This document shows positions 40,779 through 43,817 of a DNA stretch of 64,000 bases, in pieces. Source of the stretch: Gammaproteobacteria bacterium (GTDB taxonomy: Bacteria > Pseudomonadota > Gammaproteobacteria > Pseudomonadales > Azotimanducaceae); the NCBI GenBank assembly GCA_024640825.1, contig JAHEEG010000003.1, positions 1 through 64,000 on the forward strand, in the 5' to 3' direction. The notes under the pieces are model-generated. The model saw nothing but the letters and a program-made list of their open reading frames with translations. It was not told where the DNA came from and searched no databases. Position 1 is the stretch's first letter. Every line of letters begins with the position of its first letter. The translations under genes were made by a program, and so were the position numbers.

Positions 40779-41498
40779 GTGAGCCAGATAGAGTTCCATC
40801 AGGTGAGCAAGCGTTTCGAGAACGGGCATGAAGCGCTGCGGGACATAACGGCGGCCTTCGAAGAAGGCTCCATGACTTTTCTGACCGGCCATTCAGGCGC
40901 CGGGAAAAGTACTTTTCTCAAGCTGCTGCTGTGTCTGGACAGGCCAACCAGAGGCCAGATTCTGGTCAACGGTGTTAACGTGGCCCAGATTCCGCCGGTG
41001 CGCCTGGCCTACTACCGGCAGAATTTGGGAGCGGTGTTTCAGGACCATCATCTGCTGACTCACCGCACCGTGTTTGAGAATGTGGCGCTGCCTCTGAGGG
41101 TGGTGGGCTTGAAGGAAAAGGACATCGGTAAGCGAGTGCGGGCGGCGCTGTCTCGGGTAGGATTGTTGAGCAAGGAGGGTCTGTTCCCCCGTTATCTGTC
41201 GACTGGCGAACAGCAGCGGGTAGGCATCGCGCGCGCCGTTGTGACGCGACCTAAGATCCTCCTGGCGGACGAGCCCACAGGGAATCTGGATCCTGCCTTG
41301 TCCCGAGACATCATGCAGCTCTTCGAGCAATTTCATCAGTTTGGAACCACCGTAATCGTCGCCAGCCACGACCGCGAGCTGATAGAGACGATGGACGCCC
41401 GGATCATCGAGCTGAGCCACGGCGCGGTGGTGAGAGATGAGACTGAGTACGCTTCCGGAGAGGTTCTCTCGGACGAGTCCCACCATGTCGAAGTCTAG
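40779..41498 (+). CDS. ftsE: Cell division ATP-binding protein FtsE
   Basis: GHSGAGKSTFLKLL, STGEQQRVGIARAVV, LLADEPTGNLD. Confidence 0.95.
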   Translation: MSQIEFHQVSKRFENGHEALRDITAAFEEGSMTFLTGHSGAGKSTFLKLLLCLDRPTRGQILVNGVNVAQIPPVRLAYYRQNLGAVFQDHHLLTHRTVFENVALPLRVVGLKEKDIGKRVRAALSRVGLLSKEGLFPRYLSTGEQQRVGIARAVVTRPKILLADEPTGNLDPALSRDIMQLFEQFHQFGTTVIVASHDRELIETMDARIIELSHGAVVRDETEYASGEVLSDESHHVEV

Positions 41499-42462
41499 GG
41501 GTTCGAAGTCTAAGCTCAGCCGTGATCCCTGGCCGCGTAATCGATCTGGTCTCGCCGCTGGCGGTCGCGATCATCTGAGGGTCGCGCGGGAAACGCTGCA
41601 CTTCGTCAGCGCCCGGATGGGCACCAGCCTGCTGGTTTGGCTGCTGGTGGGCATCGCCTTGGCTTTGCCGGCGGGACTGTTTCTTTTGCAGGTCAATCTC
41701 GGAGCAATGACCGACGCCTGGGACGGTCGGCCCGGTCTATCCGTTTACTTCCAGCTCGACGCCTCGGATCCGGCGATTCAGGAGGTCGTTGAAACCCTGC
41801 GAGGCGATGCATCTGTTCATGGGGTCACGTTTATCTCCCAGGCCCAGGCCCTAGCGGAATTTCAGAGCTACGCCAGCCTGAGCGACGCGCTGGAGCTGCT
41901 GGATGAAAATCCTCTGCCGGCTTCGGCCCGGGCGGTGCTGGCGGGTGGTTCTGGCCTTGCCGATCTGCAGCGCCTCGCGGATATGGTCACTTCAGCCCCC
42001 GGGGTTGCCGAGGTGTCAGTCGAGAAAACCTGGCTGGAGCGGGTCACGGAAATTACCCGGGTGATCAGTCGGTTAGGCATCATGCTGGGGCTTCTGTTCG
42101 GTATAGGGGCCGTTCTGGTGACCGCCACTTCCGTGCGTCTGGCGATCGAAGCTCGCCTTGAAGAGCTGCGGGTGCTCAAGCTGGTGGGTGCCACCGATGG
42201 CCAGATCAGGCGACCATTCCTCTATTTTGGCGTGTTTTACGGCCTGGGTGGCGGGCTGGTTGCTGCCATGCTCATCAGCCTGAGCCTGCTGGTCGTTGAG
42301 ACCCCCCTCACGAACCTGCTCGGCAGTTATAGCCAGAATCTTGAACTGGCCGGTTTCGACCCCAGTTTCCTCGGCGTCCTCTTCGCGATAGGCGGCGTTC
42401 TCGGCGTCCTTGGCGCGCTTCTTGCGGCCAGAGCGCGTCTTGGAAATTTGGAAATACTCTGA
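41485..42462 (+). CDS. ftsX: Cell division permease FtsX
   Basis: Four-TM FtsX topology; overlaps the ftsE 3' end; start ATG 41485. Confidence 0.94.
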   Translation: MSKSRGSKSKLSRDPWPRNRSGLAAGGRDHLRVARETLHFVSARMGTSLLVWLLVGIALALPAGLFLLQVNLGAMTDAWDGRPGLSVYFQLDASDPAIQEVVETLRGDASVHGVTFISQAQALAEFQSYASLSDALELLDENPLPASARAVLAGGSGLADLQRLADMVTSAPGVAEVSVEKTWLERVTEITRVISRLGIMLGLLFGIGAVLVTATSVRLAIEARLEELRVLKLVGATDGQIRRPFLYFGVFYGLGGGLVAAMLISLSLLVVETPLTNLLGSYSQNLELAGFDPSFLGVLFAIGGVLGVLGALLAARARLGNLEIL

Positions 42463-42492
42463 AAACAAGCTCTTAGGGAACCATATTCAGGC

Positions 42493-42519
42493 TTAGCACT
42501 CTCATAAAGGGAGTGCTAA
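42493..42519. promoter_or_regulatory. Perfect CIRCE operator (predicted HrcA-binding inverted repeat) upstream of rpoH
   Basis: TTAGCACTC (42493-42501), N9 TCATAAAGG, GAGTGCTAA (42511-42519): identical to the consensus TTAGCACTC-N9-GAGTGCTAA. Confidence 0.92.
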
Positions 42520-42522
42520 AAT
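42493..42522 (+). promoter_or_regulatory. Candidate sigma-70-type rpoH promoter overlapping the CIRCE element
   Basis: TTAGCA (42493-42498), 18-nt spacer, TAAAAT (42517-42522), 29 nt before the rpoH ATG. Confidence 0.45.
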
Positions 42523-42551
42523 AAAAAGATTGGTGTTACCGGAGGTATCAC

Positions 42552-43409
42552 ATGGCTTCTGACATACTGTCGTTGAACGCCCTTTCGCCGGGTCGCGACC
42601 TCGATGCATACATGAGCACCGTGGGCGCTATTCCGGTGCTTACCGCGGATGAGGAGAAAGCCCTCGCGGAGCGCTTTTATTACGAGAACGACCTTCAGGC
42701 TGCCCGTGAGCTGGTGCTCAGTCACCTGCGCTTCGTTGTGCATCTGGCACGTTCTTATCGCGGCTACGGGCTTCCACTGGGTGACCTCATTCAGGAAGGC
42801 AACCTGGGGCTCATGAAGGCCGTCAAGCGTTTCAATCCGGAAGTTGGTGTGCGACTCATTTCGTTTGCCGTGCACTGGATCAAAGCCGAGATGCACGAGT
42901 TCATTCTGCGTAACTGGCGCATTGTGAAGGTGGCTACGACCAAGGCGCAGCGGAAGCTGTTCTTCAACCTGAGAAGCAGCAAAAAGCGCCTTGCCTGGCT
43001 GACCCAGGAAGAAACCCGCACCATGGCCAGCGAGCTGGGTGTCAGCGAAGAAGAAGTGACGCGGATGGAAGGTCGAATGGCCAGCAGCGATCTTTCTTTT
43101 GATGGTCTGGCTGCGGATGATGACGAGGATGGCGGCAGCGCGGCTCCTGTTCACTACCTCGAGCTGGAAGGTGCCGACCCCGCGGAGCTGGTTGCCGAAG
43201 AGGACGACAAGCGCATGGCGCTTGAAAAGCTTGGCGCGGCTTTGACCGTTCTTGATGACCGAAGCCGCGATATCATTCAACGGCGCTGGCTGGACGATGG
43301 CAAGTCAACGCTCCACGACCTGGCAGACAAATACCAGGTATCGGCGGAACGTATCAGGCAGATTGAGAAAAACGCCATGCAAAAGCTGAAGGGTGCTATG
43401 GCTGCCTGA
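42552..43409 (+). CDS. rpoH: RNA polymerase sigma factor RpoH (sigma-32)
   Basis: [71 protein letters not shown] (RpoH box); follows ftsYEX; SD GGAGG upstream. Confidence 0.97.
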
Positions 43410-43817
43410 GTGATGGCCCGCTGGCAACTTTGCGTGGGTGCCGGGGCGTTTCTAGGCGGGACGGGCGTAATTGCGGGAGCCTTCGGCGCTCATGCGCTAA
43501 AAGCTCGGTTGGGGGCAGACGCGCTGGAAACCTGGGATACGGCCGTATCCTATCAGCTTGTTCATGCGCTGCTGCTCGTCGCGGCGGGCCTCTGGCTGAA
43601 GCTCGATTCAGAGGTCTCACGGGCGCCCCCAGTCTCTCTTTCGGTAGCAGCACTTGCATTGATCGCAGGAATCCTTTTGTTCTCCGGCAGCCTTTACGCG
43701 CTGGCGCTCGGTGGGCCCAGGGCCCTTGGTCCTGTCACGCCGCTTGGTGGCGTGGCCTTTGTTGTCGGCTGGGGCTGCCTGATAGTGGCAGCCCGGCAGG
43801 GCGTCTCCAGGCGGTGA
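43410..43817 (+). CDS. DUF423 family membrane protein
   Basis: Four-TM protein with GTGVIAGAFGAHALKARLGADALETWDTAVSYQLVHALLL; initiates immediately after the rpoH stop. Confidence 0.85.
   Translation: MMARWQLCVGAGAFLGGTGVIAGAFGAHALKARLGADALETWDTAVSYQLVHALLLVAAGLWLKLDSEVSRAPPVSLSVAALALIAGILLFSGSLYALALGGPRALGPVTPLGGVAFVVGWGCLIVAARQGVSRR

Follow-up and report, generated by a model that had tools for sequence, protein, structure and literature searches.

The spacer between ftsX and rpoH in the 64-kb stretch of gammaproteobacterial DNA analysed here (64,000 nucleotides, referred to below as the window) contains a perfect CIRCE, the operator of the HrcA repressor. The same layout is found before rpoH in most of the hrcA-bearing gammaproteobacterial genomes that we sampled, and conserved promoter-like sequence is interleaved with the repeat. 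The sequence evidence makes it very probable that the site functions as an HrcA operator, which represses the initiation of rpoH transcription over a sigma-E-type and a sigma-70-type promoter and which is tuned by GroEL. The first-pass annotation of this DNA treated the site as a local feature; the site is real, but the arrangement is class-wide, and the finding is more aptly seen as a composite regulatory element of the whole class than as something peculiar to the window.

The CIRCE site and its locus

The gap between the end of ftsX (42462) and the ATG of rpoH (42552) is 89 nt long and contains the sequence TTAGCACTCTCATAAAGGGAGTGCTAA (42493–42519). It has the form TTAGCACTC-N9-GAGTGCTAA, matches the CIRCE pattern with 0 mismatches and the canonical 9-nt spacer, exactly as had been reported in the first-pass annotation, and is followed by the rpoH ATG 32 nt downstream. 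By this inverted repeat the sequence belongs to the HrcA/CIRCE operators. At up to 3 mismatches it is the only match in the 64-kb window, against 0.01 expected from dinucleotide shuffles. The features of the locus are as follows.

41437–42462, plus strand: ftsX, the upstream gene, taken from the open reading frame list, start codon uncertain; FtsX-like, with a TIGR00439 score slightly below the cut-off (246.9 against 255 bits)
42477–42483, plus strand: sigma-E-like -35 element GGAACCA, corresponding to the class-wide GGAACTT block at -16 to -10 from CIRCE; kept in the congeners
42493–42519, no strand assigned: CIRCE (HrcA operator), TTAGCACTC-TCATAAAGG-GAGTGCTAA, pattern match
42493–42498, plus strand: sigma-70-like -35 element TTAGCA in the left CIRCE arm; TTRGCA is conserved class-wide
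42500–42504, plus strand: sigma-E-like -10 element TCTCA, made of the last 2 bases of the left arm and the first 3 of the spacer, 16 nt past the -35 element
42517–42522, plus strand: sigma-70-like -10 element TAAAAT, made of the last 3 bases of the right arm and AAT, with T at the sixth place
42533–42551, plus strand: conserved rpoH leader GTGTTACCGGAGGTATCAC, a short hairpin containing the Shine-Dalgarno sequence, from comparison with relatives and folding
42541–42545, plus strand: Shine-Dalgarno sequence GGAGG, from the sequence
42552–43409, plus strand: rpoH (sigma-32), identified by the NCBIfam equivalog TIGR02392 (396.9 bits, cut-off 323.1), which bears out the earlier naming of the gene 3' of CIRCE

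The first-pass annotation had placed the operator over a single sigma-70-like promoter, TTAGCA-N18-TAAAAT at 42493–42522. These elements are present and the overlap holds, but a sigma-E-like promoter, GGAACCA-N16-TCTCA at 42477–42504, had been missed. Sigma-E promoters of E. coli have a GGAACTT-like -35 element and a TCTGA- or TCAAA-like -10 element separated by 15–16 nt, and the window sequence conforms to this pattern. As far as sequence can tell, then, CIRCE overlaps promoter-like elements at a heat-shock gene, rpoH. Transcription is predicted to start at about 42510–42512 from the sigma-E-type promoter, giving a leader of about 41 nt, and at about 42528–42530 from the sigma-70-type one, giving a leader of about 23 nt.

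The leader sequence itself (42533–42551) is identical in two congeners and also in L004 and L005, and near-identical in L006–L008; its flanks diverge. It can be folded as GUG-U-UACC[GGA]GGUA-U-CAC, with the Shine-Dalgarno sequence in the loop and the 3' arm, and is possibly a translational layer or a protein-binding site. We considered an RNA thermosensor in this leader and rejected it, as the computed pairing is nearly constant from 20 to 50 °C and the hairpin is kept in close relatives and not class-wide. The search of 42300–43500 against Rfam returned no known RNA family; a SECIS_3 hit on the opposite strand was below threshold and was judged to be due to chance.

The first-pass annotation had proposed a search of the complete genome for hrcA and for further CIRCE sites, and both are there. 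The assembly (4.09 Mb in 296 contigs, 96% complete) has one hrcA gene (contig C295), intact and full length, which scores 306.1 bits with TIGR00331 (cut-off 197.2) and is followed by grpE. Across all 4.09 Mb there are only two CIRCE sites at up to 3 mismatches, the one before rpoH and another, with 1 mismatch, before groES; the reversed pattern used as a control gave 0 matches. The region upstream of hrcA(-grpE) has no CIRCE, its best match having 7 mismatches, so the predicted CIRCE set of this genome consists of groES(L) and rpoH. The search of the same 96%-complete assembly for RpoE (TIGR02939) gave nothing above the cut-off, the best ECF hit reaching 73.5 bits against 236, and weaker ECF sigma factors are present (L295–L298). 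Since RpoE is found above the cut-off in all four congeners, its absence here is likely to be an assembly gap.

Distribution of CIRCE before rpoH

Two of the four congeners could be read at this locus; no match to rpoH was obtained in G001, and in G002 the match was confined to residues 85–284. In both readable genomes, G004 (rpoH 91% identical) and G003 (78% identical), the repeat, whose fate in close relatives had been marked for checking, is kept with 2 mismatches and lies as far from the ATG as it does in the window, and GGAAC is kept as well. Within the family, CIRCE precedes rpoH in G006–G010 and is degenerate (4 mismatches) in G005 and G012; none was found before rpoH of G011.

Beyond the family, 29 of 80 named rpoH loci from GTDB genomes have CIRCE (at most 3 mismatches) before rpoH, the carriers including Alcanivorax, Haliea, Halioglobus, Luminiphilus, Parahaliea, Dyella and Luteimonas; none of the Acinetobacter loci among the 80 has it. 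For 50 genomes of the named set the site was present in 25/25 with hrcA versus 1/25 without it (Fisher p = 4e-13); one of the 25 hrcA genes is a fragment cut off by the end of its contig, and the single hrcA-negative carrier is a draft MAG.

For the class as a whole, 140 Gammaproteobacteria genomes at least 90% complete were taken in an even draw (essentially one per family), hrcA and rpoH were located, and the 500 nt upstream of every rpoH were scanned, mismatches being counted out of 18. At up to 3 mismatches CIRCE stands before rpoH in 91/99 genomes with hrcA versus 4/31 without it (Fisher p = 9e-17), the families of the sample being not fully independent; at up to 2 mismatches the counts are 86/99 versus 3/31 (p = 2e-15), and the site is perfect in 46 of the 91. 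The best site in 390 first-order random rpoH upstream regions had 4 mismatches and occurred once. In both sets the presence of the site thus tracks hrcA across species, a match with which clade-level inheritance is not easily squared. The HrcA control of rpoH predicted in the first-pass annotation draws support from the sequence of the locus and from this class-wide co-occurrence.

The exceptions are of both kinds. No CIRCE at up to 3 mismatches was found in the 500 nt before rpoH in 8 of the 99 hrcA-bearing genomes. In G166 (L179), a genome with hrcA that was scored negative, a CIRCE-like repeat lies about 75 nt upstream of rpoH; its arms are 8 nt apart (CTGGCGCTC-AAATTGCA-GAGTGCTAAAAT) and GAACTT precedes it, so that 91/99 is a lower bound. 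Conversely, G083 (L235), G187 (L242) and G180 (L203) have no detectable hrcA and a CIRCE with 0 or 1 mismatch before rpoH. A protein search for a missed hrcA in the CIRCE-positive genomes scored as lacking it found none, an empty answer that is weak evidence; missing contigs or recent loss are possible explanations for these three carriers. Two other genomes without hrcA, G136 and G134, have a decayed CIRCE-like sequence before rpoH, which is what one would expect once the repressor has been lost. Since the layout occurs in most hrcA-bearing gammaproteobacterial families, it is E. coli and Pseudomonas that would seem to be the exceptions.

The interleaved element and alternative readings

When 94 rpoH sites are aligned on CIRCE, three extra conserved blocks appear, and the window carries every one of them. 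GGAACTT occupies positions -16 to -10 from CIRCE; T-[A/C]-A fills the first three bases of the spacer and, with the TC that ends the left arm, makes TCTAA or TCTCA; AAT directly follows the right arm and, with the TAA of the arm, makes TAAAAT. The first two blocks are 16 nt apart, which is the geometry of a sigma-E promoter, and the third forms a sigma-70-type promoter with TTRGCA of the left arm at a spacing of 18 nt.

These blocks set the rpoH sites apart from the 25 groES CIRCE sites of the same genome set, which served as the control and which adjoin a CTTGAC...CTAT promoter, lying just downstream of it. GAAC starts exactly at -15 from CIRCE in 52/94 rpoH sites versus 0.3 expected, and in 62/94 if 1 nt either way is allowed, which leaves 32/94 that are without GAAC in the fixed register; it is in register in 0/25 groES sites. 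T and A at spacer positions 1 and 3 are found in 45/94 rpoH versus 0/25 groES sites, and the T completing TAnnnT in 83/94 versus 2/25. The distance from CIRCE to the rpoH ATG varies from 9 to 196 nt; the position of the promoter elements is fixed with respect to CIRCE, not with respect to the gene. In a few genomes (e.g., G120 and G070) GGAAC lies about 15 nt further upstream and TCTAA is found just before CIRCE. In 31% of the rpoH CIRCE sites, versus 3/25 groES sites, the left arm has G as its third base (TTGGCACTC, e.g., L194), a variant that shifts the putative -35 element towards TTGACA. Searching the phylum with the composite pattern, for which the position before rpoH was checked for part of the hits, we found GGAAC intact in six genomes including that of the window, all of the class Gammaproteobacteria, and in 0/135 genomes of other classes, a sample made up mostly of lineages that often lack hrcA.

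One may accept that the operator is real and represses rpoH and still hold that only one of the promoters matters, GGAAC belonging to another ECF sigma factor or being a relic, with no role for sigma-E. The assembly, with no RpoE above the cut-off and with other ECF sigma factors, and the window's own -35 element, which is GGAACCA and not GGAACTT, are in keeping with such a view. We regard it as unlikely, however, given that all four congeners have RpoE, that GGAAC is in place in the readable ones, that the spacing between it and the TC-N-N-A reaching into the spacer is kept across the class and that sigma-E control of rpoH is established in E. coli.

That the palindrome works mainly as an RNA hairpin, in mRNA stability, termination of ftsX or control of translation, and not as a DNA operator, seems very improbable. 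CIRCE does form a perfect inverted repeat, and in groE-type transcripts it has been described as acting at the RNA level too; the predicted starts, however, lie inside or past the repeat, so the full hairpin would not be present in the mRNA, no U-run follows it, and both arms match the HrcA consensus beyond what mere pairing would give, in a site whose presence tracks hrcA. It is hardly credible, finally, that the site arose by chance or is a dead relic without present function. Relics do occur, as the decayed sequences at the same place in some genomes without hrcA (G136 and G134) indicate, but the window site is perfect, the hrcA gene is intact and full length and the congeners keep the site, while chance is excluded by the shuffles, the co-occurrence and the random upstream regions.

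Proposed regulation and relation to known systems

Under the reading that we prefer, an HrcA operator set over both promoters, HrcA bound to CIRCE would cover the two promoters together. As long as GroEL is free, HrcA would be active and both rpoH promoters closed; when unfolded protein occupies GroEL, HrcA would be released and sigma-70 would transcribe rpoH, joined by sigma-E when the envelope is under stress. The sigma-32 produced would then raise the level of chaperones, including those of groESL with its own CIRCE site, which would restore HrcA activity and close the loop, and rpoH would integrate envelope stress with the demand for GroEL. In B. subtilis and H. pylori, GroE stimulates the binding of HrcA to DNA and its titration by unfolded protein lifts the repression (PMC6032397). 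Read-through from ftsX could yield rpoH mRNA that is free of repression at initiation.

Repression by HrcA and activation by sigma-32 are usually presented as heat-shock strategies that are alternatives or run in parallel, and in the textbook circuits of E. coli and Pseudomonas the feedback from GroEL and DnaK acts on the sigma-32 protein. HrcA placed above rpoH would unify both strategies: the amount of sigma-32 mRNA would depend on how far GroEL is occupied, and the envelope-stress signal would reach the same DNA through sigma-E. We lean slightly towards the view that this interleaved control is ancestral in Gammaproteobacteria, including the former Betaproteobacteria, and that the circuits of E. 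coli and Pseudomonas are derived, having arisen after the loss of hrcA. If so, repressor and sigma factor would form one GroEL-sensing cascade and not two parallel systems, and there would be a concrete account of loss and replacement for the time when Enterobacterales, Pseudomonas and Acinetobacter lost hrcA. The proposal is testable in harmless, culturable species with this element.

HrcA control of rpoH is not new as an idea. In the open-licence literature we found one paper on CIRCE upstream of rpoH, in which a perfect CIRCE was predicted in 2004 at -51 of the rpoH start in Geobacter sulfurreducens, together with sites at groESL and hrcA, with the profiles of Permina and Gelfand 2003 (Rodionov et al. 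2004, PMC545781); the same search gave no paper on a class-wide spread or on the interleaving of CIRCE with a sigma-E promoter. The Geobacter case concerns one deltaproteobacterium and has no reported overlap with sigma-E or sigma-70 promoters, whereas the element described here is gammaproteobacterial and class-wide. The 2003 study reportedly dealt with beta- and gammaproteobacteria, and CIRCE sites before rpoH may already be among those it gives for some species.

With the classic HrcA/CIRCE regulon of B. subtilis and many other bacteria (groESL and hrcA/dnaK), the window's genome shares the operator, its spacing and the repressor family TIGR00331. It differs in that the target is the sigma-32 gene, that the operator lies over both promoters, whereas the groES sites lie downstream of theirs, and that its hrcA-grpE has no CIRCE. 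The E. coli rpoH promoter region involves sigma-70, the sigma-E promoter P3, DnaA and CRP, and has, like the window, sigma-E-type and sigma-70-type promoters downstream of ftsX; in contrast to the window's genome, E. coli has no hrcA (a control search with the profile PF01628 gave no match) and no CIRCE before its rpoH. In Agrobacterium tumefaciens RpoH and HrcA reportedly act independently at groESL (Nakahigashi et al. 1999, as cited in PMC11764788). Both regulators are present in one proteobacterium, as here, and stand side by side on groE, whereas in the genome of the window HrcA would be placed above RpoH.
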